Source of the DNA: Plumapathes pennacea
Taxonomy: Eukaryota > Cnidaria > Anthozoa > Antipatharia > Myriopathidae
Direction of reading: 5' to 3'
Length of the DNA: 64,000 nucleotides
NCBI GenBank assembly: GCA_964036295.1
Contig: OZ038469.1
Coordinates: 4,108,067-4,172,066 of the forward strand
The translations under genes were made by a program, and so were the position numbers. Below, piece by piece: positions 743 through 60,204 of this stretch (position 1 is its first letter; every line of letters starts with the position of its first letter). The notes below the pieces were generated by a model. That model saw only the letters and a list, made by a program, of their open reading frames with translations. It did not search any database and had not been told where the DNA came from.

Positions 743-1112
743 CTTTGTATTTCTGCAATGCCTCCTTCTGGTCTGCAGTCCGCATTAAGGCCAACAAGGA
801 AAGAGCCAGTGCCAAGATGGCAAGGAGAGTCGCGACTACTCCTAAGATGACTGCGCACTTCAGGAAGAAACGGGTACAAACATTTGCGGCCCCATCAGAA
901 TAATCAGATAGTTCTACTTTCTTACAGCAAAGATTGCGCTTCATGGTACTGTTCCCGGATTGCGAAATCAAGTCGACTCGAGACCTGTGTTGAGATTCAC
1001 CTTGGTCCTCGATGTGAGGCTTCCTTTGTTCCAGTGGAATTTCCTGTAGTTTGTATTCTTGTTCTGATGAAGTGATGATAACATTCGGAGAAGTTTCCTG
1101 AACAACTTCCAT
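743..1112 (-). CDS. G1: collagen-like type II membrane protein, exon 1 only (partial)
   Basis: Exon 1 of an array gene whose remaining exons would lie left of the window. The ATG at 1112 has a good context (GGAAAATGG) and the exon ends at a CTTTGTA/GTAAGG-type donor at 742, leaving phase 1 (123 codons plus one base). Residues 1-85 are the cytoplasmic tail: [10 protein letters not shown] start, EYKLQEI, the NLCCKK dicysteine near the membrane. Residues about 86-110 form the single helix ([20 protein letters not shown]). The first 80 residues are A-type, but the juxtamembrane and helix residues are B-type, so the exon looks like a mosaic. The KRSS that normally precedes the helix is changed to RFF. 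Sequence left of 465 is not family intron, so downstream exons may be lost and G1 may be an orphan head. Confidence 0.75.
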
Positions 1113-1480
1113 TTTCCAAGCTTAGCCACACAACTGTACTTGATATCCAACTCAATTCAAACTAATACCAATTGTGTGCGTTAGCGGCATGTTTCAAGGA
1201 TGAGTCTATTATTTTATTACATTCTTTAAATTATTTCGTTGACAAGTAAACCCACATATAAAAGTGCTGTGACAAAATGGATAACAATTTTCAATATCAT
1301 AACGTTTAATTGAATAGTTTACGCGATGAACGCATAATAGCGTAAAAAAAGATAAGCTTACTTGTCACATATCTAAACCTTGTTTAGTTTTTTTAATCTG
1401 TAACAAATAACAAGTCGACATGTATTAAATTCAATTAAAAGCCCACATCGCACTAGGACAAGTTTTATTTATTTTCCACT
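1113..1480 (-). promoter_or_regulatory. Upstream region of A-type gene G1 (putative 5' UTR and promoter)
   Basis: This roughly 370-bp stretch upstream of the ATG is nearly identical at 18748-19130, 35213-35570 and 60205-60575, and clearly related upstream of the B genes (12852-13240, 29090-29460). Conservation across both types, next to the start codons, suggests a shared 5' UTR or promoter. I see no reliable TATA box: an ATATAAAA-like stretch near 1256 is not preserved in all copies. Copying alone could explain the similarity. Confidence 0.4.
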
Positions 1481-1483
1481 TAA

Positions 1484-56500: not shown

Positions 56501-59500
56501 CCGTACTTGGTTGCACTAATAACTTACCTGATTGGTCAATGTTGCATTGACGGACGTCAGCCTGTCCAAAAATAACTGTTCAAAATCTTGCAGCTTCTGT
56601 TCTGTAACGTCTAACTGCAACAATACAAGTCTCGTAAGAATTGGACTGGGTTATAACACTATGAGCCAGCAACATTCACTCTCTTTACAAGTCCCTTGAA
56701 GAATTTACACTCAAAAATGTGCAGGCCTATAATGAGCATGCAGTAAAAATATGTAGAAAGACAAAATTGGAGCACCGTGTTTTTTTTTTTTTTTTTTTTG
56801 GGGGGGGGGGGGGGGTGCGTAAAAAAATATTGAGAAATAAGTTTTAATTATCTGATTAGTGCGCATATACGGTGCATATTTACAATTACGTTACTTGTAA
56901 CATGGCTAGTGCGATCATATACTCATGAGCTTGGATTAGCTATAGACGATTTTATGTTGACTTAGTTGTGAATGAATTACCAACAACTCTTGAAGAGTTG
57001 ACACGTTCCTCTTTAAGTCGTGAACTCTTTGCATCAACGACTTGATTGATTCTGAAATGTAATGAGAAAAGCAATGTTATAGAACTATAAAATATCGGTC
57101 AAGTATAGTTGTAAATTCTTGCAAGGCTCTATGTTTTGACCCAATGATCAACTACATACATTGCATTTGTTAAATGTTTTGCTGATGGGGTCACTGAGGA
57201 ACTTGTCATTCTGTAATTTGCGCTAATCGCTTTATTTGCTATCAATATAAGCTTTTAATTCCTGTTTCTTTTCGTTTTTTTCTTTTTACGATTCCAGTAG
57301 CCGATTTCTTTCTGCTCACATGTTTTGTCTACAGTAAACAACTAATATATAATTGTCACTAAGAAGCATTTGAGGTGATTTATGTCTGTCAAAACTAATC
57401 GTGTTTCTAATACGTCCACATTTTTAATCATCTGTTTTACTTCCGCCTCTAAATATATCAGTCTTTGGGATTGTACTCTTTCATCAGGTGAATTTCTAGA
57501 ATATCCAGATTGAGTATGTCGAGTCTTCATCTGATTCTGACTCTGTAAGCATGTATCGTTTCATTCGCTTCTTTTCACTTTCTCTATTCTCCCTGAAAAA
57601 TAATCGCTTTGAACTTATTTACCTTTATCATATCCAGGAGGCCCTGTTGGACCCGGCGCCTTTGATATGTTGCCGGCCTGTGACAATTTGGAATTGATAT
57701 ATTAAACTTTTGTGAAAAGGTAAAAAGTGCCATTGAAGGTAAAAACGGGGGTGGTGCCAGGGCCACCTCATCCAGGTTTCACTGTAATTAGGAAAACAAG
57801 GGAAAAGCACAAGTTCACAAACGTAGAGAAAGATTGAGAAATCAAAATTATTTAATTAATGCACATGCGGTACATATTAATAATTACGTTACTTGTAACA
57901 TGACTAGTGCGATCATACACTAATGAGCTTGGAGTAGCTATAGACGATTTTTTGTTGAACTAATTACCAACAAATTAACAAAATAAATTACCAACAACTC
58001 TTGAAGAGTTGACACGTTCCTCTTCAAGGCGTGAACGCTTTGCAACAACGACTTGATTGCTTCTGAAATGTAATGAGAAATACAACGTTTTAGAAGTATA
58101 AATTATCGGTCAAGTATAGTTTTAAATTCTTGTATGACTATGTTATGACCCACTGATCAGCTACGTACATTGAATTTGTTAATGTTTTGTTGATGAAGTT
58201 ACTCGGGATTTTCATCCAGGAATTTGCGCTAATCCCTTTATTTGCTATCGATATGCCTTGTAATTCCTGGGTTTTTTTTTTGTTTTGTTTTGTTTTGTTT
58301 TTTTTTTAATTCCTTTAGCTGATTTGTTTTCTGCTCACATGCTTTGTCTACAGTAAACAACTAATATATAATCGTCGCCAAGAAATCGATTGATGGGTGA
58401 CAAGCAATTGAGGTGATTTGTCTGTCAAAAATAATTGTTTCTAATACGTCCACATTTTTAATCATCTGTTTTACTTCCGCATCTAAATATATCAGTCTTT
58501 GTGATTGTAATCCCTTTCATCAGGTGAATTTCTAAATATACTCAGATTGAGTATGTCGAGTCTTTATCTGATTCTGACTCTGTAAGCATCGTTTCGTTTT
58601 GCTTCTTTTAACTTCCTCTGCTCTCCCTAAAAAAAGATTAATCTCTGAATTCTCTCTGAATTTATTTACCTTTATCATATCCAGGAGGCCCTGTTGGACT
58701 CGGCGCCTTTGATATGTTGCCAGCCTGTGACAACTGAGAATTGATATATTAACCTTTGTAAAGGTAAAAACTGCCATCGAACGTAAAAACGGGGGGGGGG
58801 GGGGGGGGGGGTGGAATATTGAGAAATATTGAGAAAAGTCTTAATTATCTAAATTAGTGCGCATATGCGGTGCATATTAACAATTACGTTACTTGTAACA
58901 TGGCTAGTGCGATCATACACAAATGAGCTCGGAGTAACTACAGATTTTATATTGACTTAGTTGTGACTGAATTACCAAAAACTCTTGAAGGGTAGACATG
59001 TTCTTCTTTAAGTCGTGAACGGTTTGCATCAACGACTTGGTCGCTTCTGAAATGTAATGAGAAAACCAGCGTTTTAGAAGTATAAATTATCGGTCAAGTA
59101 TAGTTTTAAATTCTTGCATGGCTCTATGTTTTGACCCATTGATTAGCTGCGTACATTGAATTTGTTAATGTTTTGCTGATGGAGTCACCCGGGAACTTGT
59201 CATCCAGGAATTTGCACTCACCAAGTAACCCCTTATTTGCTATATCGATATGCCTTCTAATTCCCGTTTTTTTTTGTTTTTTTTTTTACGATTCCAGTAG
59301 CCGATTTGTTTTCTGCTCATGTTTTGTCTACAGTAAACAACTGATATATAATTGTCACCAAGAAATCAATTGATGGGTCGATGCCAAGCGTTTGAGCCGA
59401 TTTATGTATGTCAACTGATTATCGTTTCTAATACGTCCACAATTTTTATCATCAGTTTTACATCCGCATCTAAATATATCAGTCTTTGTGAGTGTAAACT

Positions 59501-60204
59501 CTTTCATCAGGTGCACTTTTAAAATATCCCGATTGAGTCTCTTAAGTCTTTATCTGATTCTGATTCTTTTTGTATAAGCAATCCCATGTAGCGCTTCATT
59601 TCGGATCCCCATTCCTTTTAAGTCTTCAACCTGTGACCTGTAGTCAGTCCTGCCTGGCATAGCACAATGTAACAGTGCTGAATCACTCAGGGACAGTTCA
59701 TTTGAAACTGAAAGCAAGAAATTTTAGCCTGGCCCTGTAACCCTACAGTTTTTAAAAGACACACACTTCCCCCCCTCCCCCCCCCCCCCCCCCCCTGCCC
59801 CATTACCCCGCGCTATCGTCATATAAAATGAACTTCCCCCTACCTTCGGAGTTCGGGTCGTCAGTCCGCTTTACTGTGGCCAACAAAGAAAGAACCAGTG
59901 CCAAGATGAGAACGGAAGTCGCGACTACCCCTAAGATGACAGCGTACTTCGAGGAGGAACGTTTTGTACAAACATTTGCGGCCCCATCAGAATAATCAGA
60001 TGGTTCTACTTTCTTCCAGCAAAGATTGCGCTTCATGGTACTGTTCCCGGATTGCGAAATCAAGTCGACTTGAGACCCCTGTTGAGATTCACCTTGGTCC
60101 TCGATGTGAAGCTTCCTTTGTTCCAGTTGAATTTCCTGTAGTTTGTATTCTTGTTCTGATGAAGTGATGATAACATTCGGAGAAGTTTCCTGAACAACTT
60201 CCAT
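53565..60204 (-). CDS. G8: A-type collagen-like membrane protein with expanded stalk, 9 exons, 418 aa
   Basis: Exons: 59844-60204, 58976-59046, 58670-58724, 57992-58062, 57623-57677, 56981-57051, 56528-56614, 53937-54224, 53565-53762. Lengths 361, 71, 55, 71, 55, 71, 87, 288, 198 sum to 419 codons with stop, all GT-AG. The tail (EYKLQEI, NLCWKK) and helix (about 87-111) match G3. The stalk has three coiled-coil exons ([39 protein letters not shown]) separated by two mini-collagen exons ([10 protein letters not shown]), then [19 protein letters not shown]. The collagen exon is the longest, about 19 triplets ([12 protein letters not shown] onward), ending [13 protein letters not shown]. The C-terminal domain has GATCST, FKCWC, LIC and HYWECPLSN. 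Exons 2-6 sit on a tandem repeat of about 1 kb. It is the largest member of the array here. Confidence 0.85.
54475..55130. repeat. Relic of the G5/G7 intron block in G8
   Basis: 54475-54920 resembles 48005-48420, and 54950-55120 resembles 31640-31800, but more diverged and with the parts rearranged. The left edge carries a CT microsatellite (54452-54465). Confidence 0.6.
55200..55400. repeat. Tandem ACCCTATTTCAGACTAAAATG repeat
   Basis: About three diverged units containing CCTATTTCAGACYAAAATG then TCAAAATCGA, ending in GGCGGCACATATCTATATGG and TATGGGAGTACCCCC. The last motif links it to the G-run element at 13242-13649. Confidence 0.65.
55401..56527 (-). other. G8 intron before the 87-nt exon
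   Basis: No exon is recognised. 56208-56260 matches 31805-31860 (ACAATACTTCGAGAGAAAAT). 56280-56527 matches the G3 intron (about 16745-17023) next to its 87-nt exon. Confidence 0.5.
56981..59046 (-). repeat. Tandem coiled-coil/mini-collagen module array in G8
   Basis: Coiled-coil exons start (plus coordinate) at 56981, 57992 and 58976, a spacing of 1011 and 984 bp. The introns between them are homologous too: each has CAGTAAACAACTAATATATAAT, TCAGATTGAGTATG and ACCTTTATCATATCC in the same order. So the unit of duplication was about 1 kb of genomic DNA with one coiled-coil and one mini-collagen exon. G5 has the same module twice (33422 and 34427). Confidence 0.8.

Follow-up and report, generated by a model that had tools for sequence, protein, structure and literature searches.

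Heads and tips with different histories in a tandem array of predicted short collagen-like membrane proteins of Plumapathes pennacea

Introduction

In the genome of Plumapathes pennacea, a stretch of 64,000 nucleotides on contig OZ038469.1 (here C8:4108067-4172066, in the following the window) holds repeated copies of a gene family with a short collagenous segment. This raises the question of what these genes encode and how the copies came to differ from each other. Our answer, which we hold with moderate confidence, is that they belong to a tandem array whose genes code for short collagen-like proteins, anchored as type II membrane proteins and probably trimeric, and exchange their C-terminal tips; multivalent binding of extracellular ligands is our guess at their role. 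The genome searched comprised 290 Mb, and coordinates without a contig name are window positions.

The array and its gene models

Within the window, all family matches are on the minus strand. Six heads, i.e. exons for the N-terminal tail and membrane helix, are open (735-1112, 18361-18747, 28703-29089, 34826-35212, 51372-51761 and 59836-60204). A sequence-only reading of this stretch had counted six heads, two broken genes and four orphan collagen exons in one orientation, and all of these are present. Gly-X-Y runs of at least seven triplets occur seven times in the window, with both strands scanned and poly-Gly filtered out, and in none of 40 first-order Markov sequences of 64 kb that served as control.

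The same reading had placed the cluster within 60 kb. The tandem cluster is real, but the array continues over about 230 kb (about C8:3.97-4.20 Mb), of which the window is a part. At least 26 places in the genome matched a tip-exon query, and 17 of them lie at C8:3.97-4.19 Mb, on the minus strand in 17 of 17. A head query gave at least 15 matches, three of them partial and one with a TAG, all at 3.99-4.20 Mb and on the minus strand like the tips. Both counts are lower bounds.

Eight gene models were built, and seven of them gave open spliced frames of 279-305 amino acids with intron phases 1-0-0; the six whose heads lie in the window are all among these. The remaining model (g4198, outside the window) is not open, since the pattern used did not detect its coiled-coil exon. 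The collagen acceptor was placed at the start of the exon match; an earlier rule, with an internal AG in g1, g18 and g60, had opened three of the six. In all six heads the exon ends at a GT donor in phase 1. The coiled-coil exon is entered in phase 1 and left in phase 0, with the acceptor TTTCAG in eight of nine aligned copies and the donor GTAA in all nine, and measures 71 nt in five of the seven open models and 62 nt in the other two (g1 and g51). The collagen exon, in phase 0 at both ends, is followed by the tip exon. Across the six models the Gly-X-Y triplets number 8, 10, 10, 10, 10 and 19, the very range proposed earlier for the intact genes, and Pfam Collagen scored above its cut-off in the one collagen exon scanned, that of g60. 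We regard this predicted exon anatomy as sound. The gene with its head at 743-1112 has this exon in the window and its other exons just outside. The exons are as follows.

743-1112, minus strand: g1 head exon (tail and membrane helix), phase 1 out
-1209 to -3660 relative to the window, outside it: remaining exons of g1
18369-18747, minus strand: g18 head exon
17590-17660, minus strand: g18 coiled-coil exon, 71 nt
14815-15021, minus strand: g18 collagen exon, 10 Gly-X-Y
14375-14572, minus strand: g18 C-terminal tip exon
28711-29089, minus strand: g28 head exon
27422-27492, minus strand: g28 coiled-coil exon
26934-27122, minus strand: g28 collagen exon, 8 Gly-X-Y
25328-25528, minus strand: g28 tip exon
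34834-35212, minus strand: g35 head exon, H18 type
34427-34497, minus strand: g35 coiled-coil exon; second copy near 33422-33493
30687-30896, minus strand: g35 collagen exon, 10 Gly-X-Y
30194-30388, minus strand: g35 tip exon
51380-51761, minus strand: g51 head exon, H51 type
50248-50309, minus strand: g51 coiled-coil exon, 62 nt
45475-45681, minus strand: g51 collagen exon, 10 Gly-X-Y
44651-44851, minus strand: g51 tip exon
59844-60204, minus strand: g60 head exon, H18 type
56981-57051, minus strand: g60 coiled-coil exon used in the model; more copies near 57992-58063 and 58976-59047
53937-54224, minus strand: g60 collagen exon, 19 Gly-X-Y, C8:14.03 Mb type
53565-53762, minus strand: g60 tip exon, C8:14.03 Mb type

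Coiled-coil exons with GT/AG splice sites are found twice in g35 (33422-34498) and three times in g60 (56981-59047). At 71 nt apiece, only one can enter a given transcript without a frameshift, and these copies would therefore be mutually exclusive or partly unused. A second conserved stretch 3' of the coiled-coil exon (33800-33905, with its copies) was also considered as an exon and rejected because of frame-breaking indels between the copies.

Heads and tips have different histories

Head and tip trees were calculated for nine genes in which a head and a tip were both available. Left out were H4192 (for which no tip exon was found), H3989 and tips without a head sequence; H3998 was paired with T3993 by position only, and the collagen-exon end of T3979 is cut short. 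In the case of g18, g35 and g60, the heads are 95-97% identical and the tips 32-44%. In the case of g1 and g4185, the tips are 91% identical and the heads 53%. When each alignment was set against the tree of the other, the approximately unbiased (AU) test rejected it both times (p 4.7e-52 and 1.2e-8).

The breaks were mapped with DNA blocks of at least 300 bases, and the mapped breaks fall in intron 2. The stretch C8:4180326-4183517 of g4185, whose head is of the H51 type, match g18 at 93-95%. This block stops 159 bp before reaching the coiled-coil exon of g18, and the tip block of g4185 is also common to g1 (93-95% with g18 and g1). Between g60 and g18, the last common block before the collagen exon (88%) ends at 56263. 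Within g35, the second intron is itself a mosaic:

31060-33140: g35 intron-2 mosaic junction, with three blocks 96-99% identical to intron 2 of g51

Two tips have close relatives outside the array. The collagen and tip exons of g60 are 91-94% identical to a copy at C8:14.034 Mb and 81% to one at 14.039 Mb, and with both copies the similarity starts at 54242, some 18 bp 5' of the acceptor. About 8 kb upstream of the distant locus, at C8:14.026 Mb, lies an open frame that is unrelated and contains a hydrophobic segment; it may be the head of the 14.03 Mb gene. The tip exon of g35 is identical in 192 of 195 positions to C8:3472824-3473018 (L061), 0.67 Mb away, and the collagen-exon ends agree in 102 of 107, while the intron and both flanks were compared without a common 11-mer. 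For contrast, the recent pair g1 and g18 has 199 of 216 11-mers in common in intron 3. The simplest reading of this exon-confined identity would be gene conversion bounded by the end of homology, and an RNA-templated route would be another possibility.

Altogether, heads and tips have different histories, and exchange between them is well supported at the DNA level. The family had been called diversifying, which holds for the exchange of head and tip modules; significant positive selection on codons, the other sense of the word, did not appear.

The predicted protein plan

In each protein, about 88 residues of N-terminal tail are followed in turn by one membrane helix, a heptad exon, a Gly-X-Y stretch and a six-cysteine tip. 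In six proteins, the single helix has a mean hydropathy of 2.7-3.2, and neither a second membrane helix nor an N-terminal signal-like peak was seen in any of the six. The heptad spacing of the coiled-coil exon was read by eye, over a segment of about 24 residues. The charge before the helix is net positive in all six; after the helix it drops in four (g60, g51, g18 and g35), stays the same in g28 and rises in g1. A type II topology is favoured rather than shown. From the exon anatomy we infer that the proteins would trimerise, take up this topology and be displayed at the surface.

Two relatives without introns, one at C5:713 kb and the other at C8:14.29 Mb, carry the whole plan in single open frames of 358 and 361 codons and are possibly retrocopies. 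They agree with the spliced models in the architecture that had been read from the window, i.e. membrane anchor, heptads, collagenous part and C-terminal domain. Several Y-E-x-x motifs occur in the tails of these relatives (L026, C5:712889-713260; L027, C8:14294170-14294532). In the array, the tyrosine of the tail motif E19-Y20 is invariant in the six heads compared, and the sequence at this tyrosine is YEEI in g51, YEKI in g28 and YKLQ in the other four. The YEEI of g51 may be an SH2-binding or uptake motif, a reading that does not extend to the four YKLQ proteins.

A tip domain without a credible match

Cysteines 5, 41, 69, 71, 87 and 94 are invariant across nine tips, eight of which are 32-73% identical to the first, and the tip ends in HYWECP or a variant of it. 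A five-cysteine C-terminal domain had been described: five do lie in the last exon, and a sixth conserved cysteine is found at the end of the collagen exon.

The tip domain has no credible match in Pfam, NCBIfam or PDB sequences. In Pfam the best match of the nine tips reached E 0.02, and the first member stayed below the printed cut-offs. SRCR and TNF, both set aside in the sequence-only reading, are not among the eight Pfam families listed for the nine tips, and neither are C-type lectin and C1q. Profile searches of PDB with the tips gave weak matches, and L027 had none at E 0.1. The matches to telomerase Teb1 (E 0.02 to 5) were judged to be chance, and so were the weak hits to Pfam and NCBIfam families that lie outside the collagen part. 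NCBIfam held nothing for two window tip exons, and matches of the two intronless relatives were far below the cut-off. With one window tip each, 13 and 17 pattern matches were obtained in prokaryote and viral contigs, and none was confirmed; phages searched with a window tip contained no relatives. No description of this gene family was found in the open-access papers searched.

Broken genes and relics

Between the intact genes lie two broken ones and four orphan collagen exons.

12606-12860, minus strand: g12 broken gene, truncated head
Other exons of g12: coiled-coil copy near 11545, its acceptor altered; collagen exon 11006-11231, disrupted; tip exon 9440-9637
42704-43048, minus strand: g43 broken gene, an in-frame TAG in its head; collagen exon at 41768-41965
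6869-7000, minus strand: orphan collagen-exon relic with stop
22704-22886, minus strand: orphan collagen-exon relic with stop
38458-38589, minus strand: orphan collagen-exon relic, this copy without a stop
63469-63600, minus strand: orphan collagen-exon relic with stop

The tip-exon query found no tip exon for g43. Truncated collagen-exon relics are also present in the introns of g35 and g60 (34071-34154, 57618-57701 and 58665-58748), inside repeated blocks roughly 1 kb long. Scans of the window for Rfam families and tRNAs gave no match. A search for the GFP family gave none either, and neither did its controls.

Selection tests

Of 17 displayed tips, T4101 and T4175 were dropped as broken. 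Ten of the remaining 15 entered the selection test, three form the 14.03 Mb set, and T4138 and T14074 are in neither. For the heads, 11 of the 15 matches were used, the three truncated g12-type heads and g43 being excluded. The codon site models were run in our own implementation, and the tests have low power. About half of the tip codons belong to a class with an omega of 0.16. In the 14.03 Mb set, the ratio of nonsynonymous to synonymous changes (dN/dS) is 1.15-1.79 in all three pairs, at a dS of merely 0.03-0.08. Site-wise diversifying selection is not shown.

Which explanation fits best

The preferred explanation, an array of membrane collagens with exchanged tips, can be put as a chain of steps. 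The anchor would run from a cytoplasmic tail through the membrane helix and a heptad segment of about 24 residues into 8-19 Gly-X-Y triplets, which would hold the tip off the cell. Unequal exchange and duplication in the array would join one kind of anchor to different tips through breaks in intron 2, a model that draws support from the incongruent head and tip histories and the mapped similarity blocks. The tips could bind extracellular ligands multivalently (microbes, symbionts, self or matrix), and the tail could couple to uptake or signalling; these last two steps are our best guess. Given their near-constant anchors and their strongly divergent outer parts, the array proteins are put forward as candidates for a recognition or adhesion family, with a possible role as trimeric surface receptors or in adhesion. 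A further-reaching version, which we consider rather unlikely, is a repertoire of constant anchors and variable tips for innate recognition or allorecognition. Here, tail, helix and coiled coil would be coupled by intron-2 exchange to tips taken either from the array or from loci as far as 10 Mb off; exon-confined transfer by ectopic or RNA-templated gene conversion would be part of this.

Several observations weigh against the preferred explanation. No significant positive selection was detected in the ten tips (omega 0.49; M1a/M2a p=0.30, M8a/M8 p=0.09) or in the 11 heads (omega 0.63; p=0.96 and 0.30), and in pairwise comparisons dN/dS was above 1 for 2 of 45 pairs of tips and 4 of 55 pairs of heads. 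Node support in the tip tree is weak (36-97), and the branches leading to g35 and g60 are long. Intron 2 takes up 8-70% of gene length and over half of it in four of the seven open models, so that three breaks there are not evidence of selection. Two of the window's eight genes of this family are broken, as would happen under neutral birth and death, and charge only partly favours the type II topology. The lack of significant positive selection would also fit membrane-anchored matrix or adhesion collagens, e.g. for substrate attachment or epithelial matrix, whose copy number and shuffling would be neutral by-products of unequal exchange. Relics and broken units that multiply along with the intact genes point the same way, and excerpts of PMC6626399 report that two genes named short-chain collagen C4, which may belong to this or to the spongin-type family, are up-regulated in the Exaiptasia pedal disc. 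A purely structural part, however, needs no such spread as that of the g18, g35 and g60 tips, which vary far beyond their heads. We therefore take this structural role as a possible but less probable alternative. That the array is decayed, with pseudogenes or silent genes whose open frames are leftovers of recent segmental duplication, appears improbable to us. The broken and orphan units, the omega of the heads and the many duplicate blocks at 93-98% identity would fit, but all six genes with heads in the window have complete frames, splice sites and phases, about half of the tip codons are under the low omega given above, and the six tip cysteines are invariant in nine members.

Our initial hypothesis had been that the genes are short-chain collagen C4 or spongin genes. 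A short collagenous stretch with a cysteine-rich C-terminal domain does fit spongin-type short-chain collagens, i.e. variants of collagen IV. According to excerpts of PMC5395295, spongin and collagen IV are homologous, and spongin NC1 has the seven cysteines common with collagen IV and three more; the array tip, in contrast, has six invariant ones. Tip and collagen IV NC1 reached an hhalign probability of 0.1%, with the positive control, spongin against collagen IV, also weak, so that a deep homology between tip and NC1 may still exist. Likewise, no profile match was obtained between the tip and the spongin-type domain of this genome, which is weak evidence given the same low control. PF01413, the C4 domain, has no match in the array; six matches exceed the cut-off on contig C5 and one on contig C4 is sub-threshold. 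A spongin-type probe matched 20 times in the genome, 14 of them in a cluster on C2, with Gly-X-Y runs in three of the four loci read. The identity was rejected, since these domains form a separate C2 family with other motifs and another number of cysteines, and we now give it very little credence.

The C2 cluster itself (C2:11307625-11449852, L063-L066) comprises no fewer than 14 short-chain collagen domains of the spongin type on a single strand; three of them have an internal stop. At C5:5784423-5849264, the collagen IV domain matches fall into two sets, some 60 kb apart and on opposite strands, which probably represent two genes. With a collagen-rich, minicollagen-like probe, 127 matches were obtained; two of the four loci inspected have collagen repeats, and the minicollagen cysteine motif was not seen among the loci read. 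Many of these matches lie within about 55 kb at C3:20658814-20713315, where one sequence (L070) was read.

Comparison with known systems

Membrane-associated collagens (MACIT: XIII, XXIII and XXV) and ectodysplasin are membrane proteins of type II that contain a coiled coil and collagenous segments; the former have several long collagen domains and the latter ends in a TNF domain. Going by these descriptions, the array models differ from MACIT in their single collagen stretch and from ectodysplasin in that the tips lack a TNF match. Class A scavenger receptors (MARCO, SR-A1, SCARA5) likewise have a membrane helix, a coiled coil, a collagenous stalk and a C-terminal tip domain. In most of them this domain is SRCR or C-type lectin, and in a survey of six anthozoan resources only two sequences met the SR-A criteria (both from excerpts of PMC5119243). 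The array tips, by contrast, match neither domain, and the proteins have only 8-19 triplets, a tandem arrangement and exchanged tips. Spongin-type short-chain collagens also combine a short collagenous stretch with a cysteine-rich end and are in tandem here too (C2:11.31-11.45 Mb); the array tip differs by six cysteines instead of ten and by other motifs, and the array proteins by a predicted membrane anchor. As to the growth of such arrays, excerpts of PMC12314368 describe coral gene arrays that grew by non-allelic homologous recombination, with recurrent tandem duplication and rearrangement. Those arrays belong to other gene families, and the word 'collagen' is absent from the main text of that paper.

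The array supplies a C-terminal domain that found no credible match in Pfam, NCBIfam or PDB sequences, on the plan of a collagenous scavenger receptor. To our knowledge, the combination of a constant anchor and interchangeable recognition ends is found in few animal gene families outside vertebrate immunity. Should transcripts bear out the predicted junctions, the array would allow a direct test of whether such a coupling serves recognition in an invertebrate.

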